Positions 708 through 5,925 of a stretch of DNA of 64,000 nucleotides are shown here, piece by piece. Numbering within the stretch: the first letter of the stretch is position 1; each line of letters opens with the position of its first letter. The notes beneath the pieces are model-generated. The model did not search any database. It worked only from the letters and a program-made list of their open reading frames with translations, and was not told where the DNA came from. This stretch comes from Chitinophagaceae bacterium (GTDB lineage: Bacteria > Bacteroidota > Bacteroidia > Chitinophagales > Chitinophagaceae), in contig JAICGN010000009.1 of assembly GCA_025923075.1 (NCBI GenBank), positions 1 through 64,000 on the forward strand, in the 5' to 3' direction. The translations under genes and the position numbers were made by a program.

Positions 708-1859
708 CTAAAACAATCTCCCCTGCCCTCCGGGCACCCTAAATCGTGTTCTATCCAAACTCCACTCCTCCGCATTCATCCCATACAGCTTTCCATACTT
801 TTTATACTGCTGCGCAACCATTTGAGCAATCGCTCCTTCACCACGCATACGTACACCCCAGCGGGAATCATTTACTTTTCCATCATGGCTGTTCTCTATC
901 AAATGCCAAACCTTATCGGCCCGATCAGGAAAATTTTTATAGAGCCAATCGTGAAACAAGAATTTAATTGCTCCATTTAACCTGATAAAAGTGTATGCTG
1001 TAAAAGTCGCCCCGTTATCCCTTGCTTCTTTCATGATCCTTTGCATCTCATGTTCGTTCAATCCCGGTATCATTGGGCCCATCATAACTCCCATTCGAAC
1101 ACCTGCAGCACTTAATTCGTTGATCACTTTTAATTTCTGTTTGGCTGTTGTTGTTCTTGGTTCCATCACTCTTCTTAAGTCTTCATTAAAAGACGTAATA
1201 GAAACCATTGCCGAAACAATATTCTTTTTTGCCATTTCCTGCAACACATCTTTGTCTTTTAATATCCATGAATTTTTCGTCAGTATACCAGCGGGCTGAT
1301 TAAATTCATTGCAGACCTCCAGTAATGCTCTTGTTAAACGATATGTTTGTTCAGCTGGTTGATAGCAATCTGTGTTACCACTTAACATGATCGGAGTTGC
1401 ATCCCATTTTGGATGATTTAAAAACTTTCGCAAGAGTTGCGGTGCATTCTTTTTTACAATGATTTTCCTTTCAAAATCAAGCCCGGCACTATAGCCCCAG
1501 TATTCATGCACATTTCTTGCATAGCAATAAATACATCCATGCTCACAGCCTGCATAAGGATTCATACTGTACATCATCCCTACATCAGGACTATCTACTT
1601 TATTGACTATTGTTTTTGATTCCTGTTCGAGATATTGCGTCTCTACATTTGATTCCTCCCAGTCATCAATAGCTTCAATATGCTCTTTTGTTTTTTCATC
1701 TTTTAAAAACTTATTTTTTGTATTGATCTGTGCTCCTCTTCCTTGCAGGTATTGAGAAGCCCCCTCTAAATCTCCTCCGCGAATTGGCGGAGAGACTTTT
1801 GAAGGTTCATGATTTTTCGGAATTACTTTAAAATGGTCCTGCTTAAGTTTTTCTGACAT
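708..1859 (-). CDS. PA0069/Rv2578c-family radical SAM protein
   Basis: A 383-residue protein with the cluster-binding motif C105xxxC109xxC112 (GCEHGCIYCYAR) following NPYAGC, as in the PA0069 family. The motif binds a 4Fe-4S cluster that cleaves S-adenosylmethionine; the substrate of this family is unknown. The RGAQINTKNKF segment near residues 41-51 is the usual family N-terminus. Ahead of it, residues about 21-36 are encoded by a dispersed repeat (1758-1800), and the extreme C-terminus (PGGQGRLF) is also encoded by a short GC-rich palindrome, so both ends appear repeat-modified. It is followed by tcmP on the same strand. Confidence 0.9.
   Translation of the reverse strand: MSEKLKQDHFKVIPKNHEPSKVSPPIRGGDLEGASQYLQGRGAQINTKNKFLKDEKTKEHIEAIDDWEESNVETQYLEQESKTIVNKVDSPDVGMMYSMNPYAGCEHGCIYCYARNVHEYWGYSAGLDFERKIIVKKNAPQLLRKFLNHPKWDATPIMLSGNTDCYQPAEQTYRLTRALLEVCNEFNQPAGILTKNSWILKDKDVLQEMAKKNIVSAMVSITSFNEDLRRVMEPRTTTAKQKLKVINELSAAGVRMGVMMGPMIPGLNEHEMQRIMKEARDNGATFTAYTFIRLNGAIKFLFHDWLYKNFPDRADKVWHLIENSHDGKVNDSRWGVRMRGEGAIAQMVAQQYKKYGKLYGMNAEEWSLDRTRFRVPGGQGRLF
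1758..1800 (-). repeat. Dispersed palindromic repeat inside the radical SAM gene
   Basis: On the minus strand this reads AAGTCTCTCCGCC, a short spacer, GCGGAGGA, then a G-run. The same order of blocks occurs at 19416-19450 and, degraded, at 59477-59510. It forms an imperfect hairpin. Here it lies in frame near the N-terminus of the radical SAM protein and adds a segment of about 14 residues. Confidence 0.75.
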
Positions 1860-1978: not shown

Positions 1979-2602
1979 CTACATAAATAACTCCCCCTGC
2001 TTTGTTGTCACGGGCAAATTCTGAAATTCGAATCGCTGTACTACCTGGTATTTTTTTTCATCGAGTGGTCTTTTTAATAATAACATTCCGTCAGCAATAA
2101 ATCTTCCTGTGAAATTCTTATTGCTGTATTCCAACCATCCCTTTTCATATTGCCAGGGTTGCAATTTTCTTGCGATCGTTATATGTGGTTCAAGAATGAA
2201 ATGCGGTTTATTATCATCATTCAATTTCATGAGCCGTTGTGTTTCTTTTCTGACTTCCTTCACCAACGTTTGCACGGGAACTTTGCTGATCACATTTATA
2301 TAGATAGTGTGACTTGGAAAACTTCCATAATCTTTAAGCTCTACTTTGATCGGATGAAAACCCATCGCTACTACTTTCAATCGGTTCACTAATCTTTCCT
2401 CCATCATTTCGTACTGAAGAAAATTTGCCAATATTAAATTTGGCCTTCCACCTAACGCAGTCGATGCTTTATATTCTTCATAAAATTCCCGCCTTACCTT
2501 CATGATCTTGTGTCGCAACTCTTCATGGGGATTTAGTACAAGCAGGTATTCAAAGATCCGGTAACCCGGGATCGTAACCGTGGTAACAGATTGTAATTGC
2601 AT
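1979..2602 (-). CDS. 2H phosphodiesterase / 2'-5' RNA ligase superfamily protein
   Basis: A 207-residue protein with two histidine motifs of the 2H superfamily: H98-T-I within SHTIYI and H140-I-T-I within EPHITIAR. These enzymes open cyclic phosphodiesters or join RNA ends; which reaction this one performs cannot be read from sequence. It is divergent from the umuD-like gene across a 105-bp gap that holds an 18-bp inverted repeat, so the two may share regulation. The start at the ATG ending at 2602 gives a hydrophobic first beta strand and is plausible. Confidence 0.8.
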   Translation of the reverse strand: MQLQSVTTVTIPGYRIFEYLLVLNPHEELRHKIMKVRREFYEEYKASTALGGRPNLILANFLQYEMMEERLVNRLKVVAMGFHPIKVELKDYGSFPSHTIYINVISKVPVQTLVKEVRKETQRLMKLNDDNKPHFILEPHITIARKLQPWQYEKGWLEYSNKNFTGRFIADGMLLLKRPLDEKKYQVVQRFEFQNLPVTTKQGELFM

Positions 2603-2634: not shown

Positions 2635-2652
2635 TTAGTATAAATTTACTAA
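2635..2652. promoter_or_regulatory. Candidate operator: TTAGTA-N6-TACTAA
   Basis: A perfect 6-bp inverted repeat with a 6-bp spacer lies midway between the divergent phosphodiesterase and umuD-like genes, 56 bp before the umuD-like ATG. Its position fits an operator for a DNA-damage repressor, but the SOS box of this group is not known to me. The region is very A+T-rich, so chance is a real alternative. Confidence 0.35.
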
Positions 2653-2707
2653 TATTTTTAGTTTATCTCAAAAAATTTTATCAACTTTATTTAGAAAAAT
2701 ATTTTTT

Positions 2708-3142
2708 ATGGAAGGCGAAGAATTTTATGGTGCTGCGTATAAAGGCACAAAGCAATTCACCCAAAAGGAAGTGAAAACAGCAAACGCTACGGGGTTTGGT
2801 GCCGCCGCCGATGACTATATGGAGCGGGGTATTGATCTGAACGAGCAACTCGTTCGCAACAAACCGGCCACTTATTTCTTTCGAATGAAAGGAGATGCGA
2901 TGCAGGAGGCCGGCATTTTTGATGGCGATATCTTAATCGTTGATCGTTCATTGAAACTGGTGAATGGAAAAGTTATTGTTGCGATATTAAACGGAGAATT
3001 ATTGGTGAGAAGGTATCATCAGAATTTTTCTTCTGCATTTCTAATTCCGGATAATAACAGATACAAGCCGATCAATGTAGCGGAGTTTAGTGATTTTAAA
3101 ATGTGGGGAGTTGTTGTTTATTCTATTCATTCCTTGGGCTAA
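2708..3142 (+). CDS. umuD: UmuD/LexA-type S24 protein lacking the catalytic dyad
   Basis: A 144-residue homologue of UmuD, collinear along its length: AAADDYMERGIDLNEQL matches the region after the UmuD cleavage site, and FDGDILIVD and GVVVYSI match the core. UmuD is normally a Ser-Lys self-cleaving partner of the UmuC polymerase. Here the serine position of GDSM is alanine (A64 in GDAM), the lysine position is arginine (R101 in GELLVRR), and the cleavage residue before Gly29 is threonine. The codons (GCG, AGA) are plain in the sequence. The fold looks preserved, so the protein may act as an uncleavable or constitutively active subunit. The stop codon lies inside the left hairpin of the following RAYT element. 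Confidence 0.88.
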   Translation: MEGEEFYGAAYKGTKQFTQKEVKTANATGFGAAADDYMERGIDLNEQLVRNKPATYFFRMKGDAMQEAGIFDGDILIVDRSLKLVNGKVIVAILNGELLVRRYHQNFSSAFLIPDNNRYKPINVAEFSDFKMWGVVVYSIHSLG

Positions 3143-3700
3143 AGCCCAGAGCAAGTCAAGAAAAGCATCTGATAAAATACAAATTCAGGTGTATGGGATA
3201 TACAAAAATGTGGGTTCACCTTGTTTGGGCAACTAAAAGAAGAGAACCCGTTCTTGATAAAGCAATTCGTGTAAGGATCTTTGCACACATTAGAGAAAAT
3301 GCGTTGAATAAGAATATTCACATTGATTTTATAAATGGGTGGGTTGATCATATTCACATCCTTGTCTCATTAGACGCCGATCAAACAATCGCCAATATAC
3401 TTCAGCTGATCAAAGGGGAAAGTTCTTACTGGATCAACAAGAACAAATTACTCCCGCAAAAATTTGAATGGCAGGATGACTATTTTGCAGTGTCTGTAAG
3501 TGAATCAGGGATAAATCAGTGAGAGAATATATTAAGAACCAGGAGAAACATCATGCAAAGAAGACCTTTCAACAGGAATATGATGAATTTATGGAGAGAT
3601 ATGAATTTGCATTGATAAGCTCACGGCCTGAAAGCCGGGGCAAATCAGGCCGGGGCAAATCAGAGGAAACCCATGAATTGCTCAGGCCTTTAGGCCTGAG
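3134..3700 (+). mobile_element. RAYT (REP-associated IS200-like) element between umuD and umuC
   Basis: The element is bounded by two hairpins of the kind that flank RAYT genes. The left has TGGGCT/AGCCCA arms at 3135-3148 and the right has CTCAGGCCT/AGGCCTGAG arms with a 2-nt loop at 3681-3700. Between them lies a Y1 transposase frame. A weaker hairpin (CGGC/GCCG) is at 3624-3637. The insertion separates umuD from umuC, which normally abut. It supplies the loop holding the umuD stop and ends 15 bp before umuC. Confidence 0.65.
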
Positions 3701-3704
3701 TTAA
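3193..3704 (+). pseudogene. Frameshifted REP-associated tyrosine transposase (Y1_Tnp)
   Basis: The first part (3193-3522, from ATG in MGYTKMWVHLVW) carries the HUH metal motif as DHIHILV and ends at a TGA just after SESGINQ. The second part (3519-3704) continues the family sequence as VREYIKNQEKHH, which contains the expected catalytic tyrosine. Loss of one G near 3519 explains the break: the two halves join if CAG is followed by GTG. The frames overlap at GTGA, so two-polypeptide coupling or -1 slippage is conceivable, but no slippery heptamer is seen. A sequencing error would look identical. The last residues come from the terminal repeat region. Confidence 0.78.
3634..3663 (+). repeat. Two tandem copies of a 15-bp unit
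   Basis: GCCGGGGCAAATCAG occurs twice head to tail (3634-3648 and 3649-3663) at the 3' end of the transposase frame, just before the terminal hairpin. It adds residues SRGKSGRGKS-like to the tail and looks like a recent slippage duplication. Confidence 0.85.
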
Positions 3705-3715
3705 AATAAAATAAT

Positions 3716-4996
3716 TTGAAGGCCATTGTAGATTGTAATAATTTTTATTGTTCCTGCGAGAGGTTATTCAAACCACATCTTGACAGGAAACCGGTTGTTG
3801 TGCTAAGCAATAACGACGGTTGTATTGTTTCAAGAAGTGATGAGGCAAAAAAATTGGGTGTGGAAATGGCGGGCCCTTATTTTATGGCAAAGCCATTGAT
3901 CGAAAAACATGATGTAGCCGTTTTTTCTTCCAATTACAATTTATATGGCGACCTGAGCTGGCGGGTAATGGAAACACTACGAATGTTACTTGGCAAAAAA
4001 AATGTGGAAGTGTATTCAGTTGATGAGGCTTTTGTTGACCTCAGCATTTTTCCAGTGGAGGAGCTGCCTGCTATCGCAAAAGAAATAAGAACAACAATAG
4101 AAGATTGGACGGGTATCAAAGTTTCAGTGGGTGTGGCTCCTACAAAAGTTTTGGCAAAGCTGGCCAACCGCATGGCTAAAAAGAATAAACATATAACAGA
4201 TTGTATAATGGTACTTGACACTGAAGAAAAGATCAGTGCAGCGCTGCATAGAACACCTGTAAGTGATATTTGGGGAGTGGGTCATCAGTATGCAAAAAAA
4301 TTGCAAGATGTGTGGGGAATTTATGATGCATGGCAGTTAAGAAATTTAACCGAAGACTTTGCTCATACACATCTTGGTGGTGTGGTTGGTATCCGGTTAG
4401 TTCGGGAATTAAAAGGAACCCGTTCCAATGAAATGGAAGATGAGTTGGTAAATAAAAAAATGATCGCCACTACCAGAATGTTTGGCAATCCTGTTGGAGA
4501 TATTGCTTCTATAAAAGAAGCGGTTGCCACCTATACATCGAGAGCAGCAGAAAAATTAAGAAGACAGCACAGTGCTGCCAGCGTTATAAATGTCTTTGTG
4601 GTTTCAAAGGGAGAAAACCATAATGTTGATTTTCGAGGAGCAACACATTCTGACTACATGACATTACCAACGGCAACTTCATCCACCAATGAACTAATAA
4701 AGCCAGCTGTTGCTCTCGTTGACAAATTATATAAAAAAGGCACATTCTATAAAAAAGCCGGAGTGGTGCTAAGTGGCATCGTTCCTGATATGTCTATACA
4801 GGGAAATCTATTTCTATCCGAAAACAAGAACTGTGAAAGAAAGTTGATGGACATGATAGATAATATCAACTTCAGTCAACGGGATGATGTTTTAAAGTTT
4901 GCAGCAAGCGGCACTACAAGAGACTGGAAAATGCGGCAGGAATTGAGAAGCCCGAGATATACAACAAGATGGGATGAGCTGTATCAAGTGCGTTAA
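3716..4996 (+). CDS. umuC: UmuC-type Y-family DNA polymerase (Pol V subunit)
   Basis: A 426-residue translesion polymerase. The palm metal ligands are D6 (IVDCNNF) and D103-E104 (YSVDEAF), with SNNDGCIVSRS in the nucleotide-binding region and helix-hairpin-helix sequence near WGVGHQYAKKL; a C-terminal UmuC-specific DUF4113-like region follows. The first in-frame start is TTG at 3716 giving MKAIVDCNNF, the usual UmuC N-terminus. The weak TTG probably reflects loss of the original ATG context when the RAYT element inserted upstream. It overlaps the convergent DUF72 gene by 4 bp. Confidence 0.95.
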   Translation: MKAIVDCNNFYCSCERLFKPHLDRKPVVVLSNNDGCIVSRSDEAKKLGVEMAGPYFMAKPLIEKHDVAVFSSNYNLYGDLSWRVMETLRMLLGKKNVEVYSVDEAFVDLSIFPVEELPAIAKEIRTTIEDWTGIKVSVGVAPTKVLAKLANRMAKKNKHITDCIMVLDTEEKISAALHRTPVSDIWGVGHQYAKKLQDVWGIYDAWQLRNLTEDFAHTHLGGVVGIRLVRELKGTRSNEMEDELVNKKMIATTRMFGNPVGDIASIKEAVATYTSRAAEKLRRQHSAASVINVFVVSKGENHNVDFRGATHSDYMTLPTATSSTNELIKPAVALVDKLYKKGTFYKKAGVVLSGIVPDMSIQGNLFLSENKNCERKLMDMIDNINFSQRDDVLKFAASGTTRDWKMRQELRSPRYTTRWDELYQVR

Positions 4997-5925
4997 TCAA
5001 ACAATCCTTTCTGTATATTCTTTCTAATTGGTTCAGTTTCTATAAACTTTGGCTTTATTAAATTCAAGCCACACTCCTTATTTAGCTTATCTGCTAAATA
5101 AATTGTTAACTCCGGTGAAGTAGCTTCATCATGCATATGCATAAAAAAATATATTTCCTTCACTCCGTGATCCAGCCAATATTTCATTCTTTGTACCCAA
5201 ACATCTGAACGGGCAAAATCAGTCGCATGTAAATTATTGCCTGCATAACGAATAAATACTTTTGGAATTGTCAAACGCATATGAGCACAATCCCGTCTTC
5301 CTGGCGTATCGGTAATCACCGCTCCTATATTATTTGCAGATAGAAATTCAAATAACTCTTCGCTTTCTTTTTCTTTACTTAACCAGGCGGGGTGACGTAC
5401 TTCAAGAAAGAATTGTAGCTCTTTTGGTAGCGATAACATAAACTTGAACAAATCAGCCTTTCTATTTGGGGAAAATGAATCGCTGACTTGTACGAAGATG
5501 GGACCGAGATGTTCTTCAAAAGCTTGTACTCCTCGAAGAAATTCTCTCGTAAGAAATTCTTTTCCTTTTAATGTGCCGCGATGAGTAATTCCCTGATACA
5601 TTTTTGGACAAAAAAGAAAATCTTTTCCTTTTGCTTTCTCTTTCCATTTTCTTATTCCAGCTGCACCATATATCTTATAATGCGTTATATTCAGTTCAAC
5701 GCAGTTATAGTGCTCAACATAATGTTGTAAGAAATTCTTCTCTCTTGTGTTTGGCGGATAAATTTTTCCGACCCATTCTGATCGTCCCCATTTAGCACAG
5801 CCCAGGTATACCTTAGCATTTTTGAATGGCTTACCCTTTATTATTTCTCTATTGGATGCAGGTTCTGCAGGTAATGAAAAATCAATAGTGTTCAATTCAT
5901 TTTCATCAACTCGTCCGAATTCCAT
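4993..5925 (-). CDS. DUF72 (YecE-like) domain protein
   Basis: A 310-residue TIM-barrel-like protein of the DUF72 family, with the characteristic YLGCAKWGRSEWVGKIYPP start and the EVRHPAW and DTPGRRD segments. The biochemical role of the family is not known. It is convergent with umuC and follows the amidase gene by 17 bp on the same strand, so it may be cotranscribed with the amidase. Confidence 0.88.
   Translation of the reverse strand: MEFGRVDENELNTIDFSLPAEPASNREIIKGKPFKNAKVYLGCAKWGRSEWVGKIYPPNTREKNFLQHYVEHYNCVELNITHYKIYGAAGIRKWKEKAKGKDFLFCPKMYQGITHRGTLKGKEFLTREFLRGVQAFEEHLGPIFVQVSDSFSPNRKADLFKFMLSLPKELQFFLEVRHPAWLSKEKESEELFEFLSANNIGAVITDTPGRRDCAHMRLTIPKVFIRYAGNNLHATDFARSDVWVQRMKYWLDHGVKEIYFFMHMHDEATSPELTIYLADKLNKECGLNLIKPKFIETEPIRKNIQKGLFD

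Follow-up and report, generated by a model that had tools for sequence, protein, structure and literature searches.

A conserved UmuD lineage of the Chitinophagaceae lacks the self-cleavage active site, suggesting a Pol V that works with an uncut partner

Introduction

UmuD is the helper protein of the error-prone polymerase Pol V; its self-cleavage is thought to activate it and is regarded as a safety catch. In Escherichia coli, uncleavable UmuD variants (S60A, K97A) block Pol V mutagenesis and keep UmuC at the membrane (PMC3901139, PMC4552617). The engineered variant "UmuD 3A" (T14A L17A F18A) is uncleavable and mimics UmuD'. Members of the Bacteroidetes, reportedly with Chitinophagaceae among them, have a non-canonical LexA with the operator CTAA-N5-TTAG (Sanchez-Osuna et al. 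2021, PMC8565304). A search of the open-access literature returned no report of a naturally uncleavable UmuD.

Here, we analyzed a 64,000-nucleotide stretch of a Chitinophagaceae genome (contig JAICGN010000009.1, positions 1 to 64,000; the window) that encodes a UmuD homologue belonging to a class without the catalytic residues. The class shares with E. coli UmuD and Pol V (UmuD'2C) the S24 fold, the gene order with umuC, an N-terminal arm and an upstream SOS-type operator; unlike E. coli UmuD, it has neither the Ser-Lys dyad nor the Cys/Ala-Gly site, its arm motif is different and GFGAAA replaces GFPSPA. An uncut arm with replaced docking residues is also found in UmuD 3A, but the class is natural and ancient and has lost the active site as well. 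Independence of self-cleavage would be shared with pre-processed UmuD' forms (the phage P1 HumD type and pre-cut proteins of the Chitinophagaceae), and the loss of Lys is shared with the pre-cut proteins only; unlike all of these, the class has kept and conserved its arm. The non-canonical LexA is likewise an S24 protein, and its operator sits in the class promoter; what sets it apart from class UmuD is a DNA-binding domain together with an intact dyad. UmuDAb of Acinetobacter is a UmuD variant too, but its DNA-binding domain and self-cleavage have no counterpart in the 2708-3142 sequence.

Results

The 2708-3142 product was aligned with E. coli UmuD and UmuD' sequences from the PDB by using HMMER, which paired T28-G29 with C24-G25, A64 with S60 and R101 with K97 (Table 1). 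It matched Pfam Peptidase_S24 with 88.6 bits and the NCBIfam UmuD model NF007621 with 130 bits (cut-off, 110). Of the traits of an autoproteolytic UmuD (NF007621), the S24/UmuD fold and homology, a nearby umuC and an arm ahead of the cleavage site were found, whereas the alignment revealed neither the Ser-Lys dyad nor the Cys/Ala-Gly site. Since this dyad-less protein scores above the Pfam and NCBIfam cut-offs, automatic annotation would call it an "autoproteolytic subunit," a database name that is wrong for the whole clade described below. No DNA-binding domain of the UmuDAb kind was present, Peptidase_S24 being the only match and the arm having 28 amino acids. AlphaFold (AF2) predicted the body with high confidence (92-95) and residues 1 to 50 with low confidence; the predicted body resembled UmuD of the RecA complex and UmuD' (TM score by target, 0.83-0.88).

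Table 1. Features of the umuD locus and its neighbors in the window
Feature	Position	Strand	Basis or remark
PA0069-family radical SAM protein	708-1859	-	
2'-5' RNA ligase-like protein	1979-2602	-	Divergent from umuD
Conserved promoter element TTAG-N10-CTAA-N5-TTAG	2635..2662	+	
CTAA-N5-TTAG operator of Bacteroidetes non-canonical LexA	2649..2661	+	Exact match
UmuD homologue, non-catalytic (A64, R101, T28-G29)	2708..3142	+	ORF with ATG start, 144 aa
Conserved N-terminal arm, residues 1-28, up to former cleavage site	2708..2791	+	
Former Cys24-Gly25 cleavage position, codons T28-G29	2789..2794	+	Alignment to E. coli UmuD
Catalytic Ser60 position, codon A64	2897..2899	+	Alignment to E. coli UmuD
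Catalytic Lys97 position, codon R101	3008..3010	+	Alignment to E. coli UmuD
IS200/Y1 (RAYT-like) transposase in umuD-umuC gap	3193..3704	+	Apparent frameshift near 3522
umuC	3716..4996	+	Full length, TTG start; D6, D103, E104, clamp motif QGNLF, C-terminal DUF4113 tail
DUF72 protein	4993-5925	-	

About 140 distinct close relatives were gathered by a scan of species genomes and by whole-genome searches, and 138 sequences, one of them a more distant row (L026), were aligned. R101 was present without exception (138/138), and position 64 was Ala in 125 (about 91%) and Ser in 11, with a single Thr and a single Asn, the latter in L026; the changes are not due to chance. G29 was invariant and was preceded by Thr, Asn or Ser, not by Cys or Ala, and residues 25 to 48 were the most conserved stretch of the protein. 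In a tree built without columns 64 and 101, the class UmuDs formed a single clade (SH-aLRT, 100). Since isolates, for example, Terrimonas ferruginea DSM 30193, are among the carriers, neither an assembly error nor the history of a single strain accounts for the residues. The first-pass annotation of the window had reported the loss of Ser, Lys and the cleavage residue and had proposed that conservation of A64 and R101 across genera would mark a distinct functional class. The alignment, which spans several genera, confirms the loss and makes the case stronger than originally put; rather than having arisen recently in one strain, all three changes are fixed traits of an old clade.

Searches of the order and the phylum did not find the class outside the Chitinophagaceae; UmuDs elsewhere were at most 49% identical, and the best matches outside the family in the phylum search (2e-34) carried canonical residues. 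A phage or plasmid source was rejected as well, the best matches having less than 50% identity and including no class member. One MAG labelled Sphingomonadales (L065) carries a class UmuD together with a diverged UmuC, a case of misbinning or transfer. In 78 of 87 carrier genomes, including that of the window, no other UmuD type was found; as this tally counts the loci fetched, it may overlook a small number of second copies. The window's genome encodes only two S24 proteins, the 2708-3142 UmuD and a LexA-like repressor (C211); a cleavable second UmuD acting in trans was rejected for this genome because none was found.

Both arm and body of class UmuD are under purifying selection: pN/pS was 0.18 for arm residues 2 to 28, 0.07 for residues 29 to 50 and 0.135 for the body, with synonymous changes near saturation and few amino acid changes. 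Compared with a relative of the same genus, the arm had 12 synonymous and 0 amino acid changes. Its length up to the conserved Phe was 28 or 29 residues in 132 of 145 sequences, whereas it varies between 15 and 52 among canonical arms. At the positions of the E. coli docking residues T14, L17 and F18, the class has T/S18, E/D/Q21 and V/I22, and the position of V22 is occupied by a nearly invariant N26, whereas canonical Bacteroidota arms retain LP....V-x-AGFPSP. Since all four docking residues are replaced, the class arm probably no longer folds over and docks on the body. That AF2 modelled the arm with low confidence is compatible with an undocked arm but is not proof, as it could equally be explained by an absent partner; AF2 was set aside as a test of arm docking because the arm confidence was too low to decide. 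An internal start that would yield UmuD' was rejected, since no conserved in-frame start exists near residue 29; the only conserved Met nearby, Met38, is Ala in 24 of 138 sequences.

Some 6 to 8 UmuDs of the same family (loci L131, L141, L156, L166, L180, L199 and L028) have their start at the cleavage site (MGFPSPA...), and the reading frame extends hardly or not at all farther upstream. Neither that start position nor the lack of an arm applies to the 2708-3142 protein with its 28-residue arm. Lys is lost in all pre-cut UmuDs, and S, A, N or F is found where the catalytic Ser would be. Placed on the UmuC tree, the pre-cut UmuDs represent four separate changes (about four origins) inside canonical clades. 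Judged from these cases, the dyad decays once the arm is deleted, and pre-cut forms without Lys support the view that Pol V of the Chitinophagaceae is able to dispense with regulated cleavage.

Four UmuDs (L301, L303, L304 and L305) from a second family within the order and L026, which comes from a third family, are also dyad-less; near the position of Ser, these five have Q/E, D or N, and they have R or D in place of Lys. The UmuC partners of the dead UmuDs from all three families formed one clade (support, 94/81; 99/97 without L026, the deepest row). This single clade makes a single ancient loss probable: catalysis was probably lost once, ahead of the split of these families, and residue identities at the dead site probably drifted differently afterwards. 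Lys was probably lost earlier than Ser, as every class member has R101 while Ser64 persists in some. Outside the Chitinophagaceae, a UmuD from family f19 of the order (L299) combines a very short arm with Ala at the Ser position and Arg at the Lys position and is a probable further independent loss. At the level of sequence, it can be regarded as established that catalysis was lost, that the loss is old and that it is conserved.

The 28-base promoter consensus was present with at most 6 mismatches in 126 of 143 class promoters, and shuffled sequences never did better than 7. Exact CTAA-N5-TTAG occurred in 134 of 140 class promoters versus 1% of shuffles, in 16 of 25 canonical umuD promoters of the family and in 0 of 21 canonical ones elsewhere. 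The extra, conserved TTAG-N10-CTAA upstream of this operator (2635-2652) is found almost nowhere but in the umuD promoters of the class, with one match each in 21 of 32 genomes, nearly all at umuD; it may be a second site or a promoter element. The LexA-like repressor homologue was single copy in 16 of 16 genomes tested and keeps the Ser-Lys dyad (GDSM, VYKR) and an AAG or equivalent cleavage site, and the operator was present in its own promoter in 14 of 14 homologues with a clear start. In the window's genome, the C211 repressor is cut by the contig end; it is complete in 15 relatives. Canonical LexA was rejected as the regulator, since no more than 2 of the 149 family genomes had a match above its cut-off, and the Bacteroidetes non-canonical LexA is the probable regulator of class umuD. 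Retention of the operator and of a dyad-intact repressor suggests that the SOS switch is kept at transcription while the switch in the protein is gone.

The UmuC partner was described as intact-looking in the first-pass annotation, and this holds: the window's gene is full length, and D6, D103, E104 and the steric-gate Tyr were kept in 124 of 124 class UmuCs, with the clamp motif and C-terminal tail present.

Discussion

The data suggest a polymerase that works with an uncut partner, with gene induction after DNA damage as the only control, and we consider it fairly probable that class UmuD is a cleavage-independent accessory subunit of Pol V under purely transcriptional control. A Pol V lineage would have abandoned self-cleavage, with nucleophile, general base and cleavage residue gone and fold, arm and UmuC kept. 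Uncut UmuD, arm included, would dimerize and directly activate UmuC, on the model of UmuD 3A, and the self-cleaving non-canonical LexA would repress umuDC via CTAA-N5-TTAG until removed upon DNA damage, so that transcription alone would limit mutagenesis. The behavior of E. coli S60A/K97A speaks against this reading, in that cleavage-free activity would need further changes, at which the class sequences only hint. The broader proposal, for which we see a slight balance in favor, is an order-wide Pol V subtype active with full-length UmuD, in which the arm has become a working part and the post-translational switch has been discarded, a start at the cleavage site being a second route to cleavage independence. 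A lineage that has lacked the catch in nature since ancient times, beside an intact UmuC, makes the purpose of cleavage testable and allows one to ask whether transcriptional control alone suffices. Moreover, canonical, pre-cut and uncut but dead UmuDs can be compared within one bacterial family.

If uncut UmuD instead held UmuC in a non-mutagenic state, class UmuD would serve as a checkpoint for damage or as a manager of polymerases. The E. coli variants S60A and K97A behave in this way, as does full-length UmuD early in the E. coli response, and the class arm is kept and conserved. However, class UmuD is the sole UmuD in most carriers, which would leave UmuC without an activator even though its catalytic residues are invariant, and the canonical docking motif is gone from the arm. 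The other UmuDs of the family that became pre-cut and UmuD'-like also point to selection for freedom from cleavage. We therefore consider a locked regulator unlikely. Of the two options in the first-pass annotation, a protein acting uncut or a locked inhibitor, the former is better supported by the sequences, and the latter is weakened, since most carriers lack a cleavable UmuD on which an inhibitor could act and UmuC is intact.

Processing in trans is more doubtful still. Lon, ClpXP or another protease could trim the arm at a new site to give a UmuD'-like form, and the highly conserved residues 25 to 48 could be such a processing site, but the window's genome has no S24 protein besides the LexA-like repressor and class UmuD, and Gly29 is preceded by Thr, Asn or Ser rather than Cys or Ala. 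Slow self-cleavage by Arg101 with Ser or another nucleophile is very improbable: Ser64 in 11 members speaks for it and counts against the preferred cleavage-independent reading, but with Ala in 125 of 138 sequences, including 2708-3142, there is no nucleophile at the site, and the cleavage residue is changed too. Decay of a pseudogene after transposon insertion, as the first-pass annotation had considered in view of the RAYT-like element between umuD and umuC, can practically be dismissed, since the closest relative, which is 98% identical (L031/L002), has the same residues without an insert, and conservation across genera, in isolates as well as MAGs, together with purifying selection refutes both decay and sequencing error.

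The umuD-umuC gap exceeded 300 bp in 28 of 124 class loci but in 0 of 44 loci with other UmuDs. Long class gaps often carry open reading frames for a Y1 transposase or a DUF559-like endonuclease (the loci concerned include L050, L038, L006, L040, L052, L086, L034, L175, L070 and others). The class spacer seems to be a recurrent insertion site, and coupling of the two genes seems to be relaxed.
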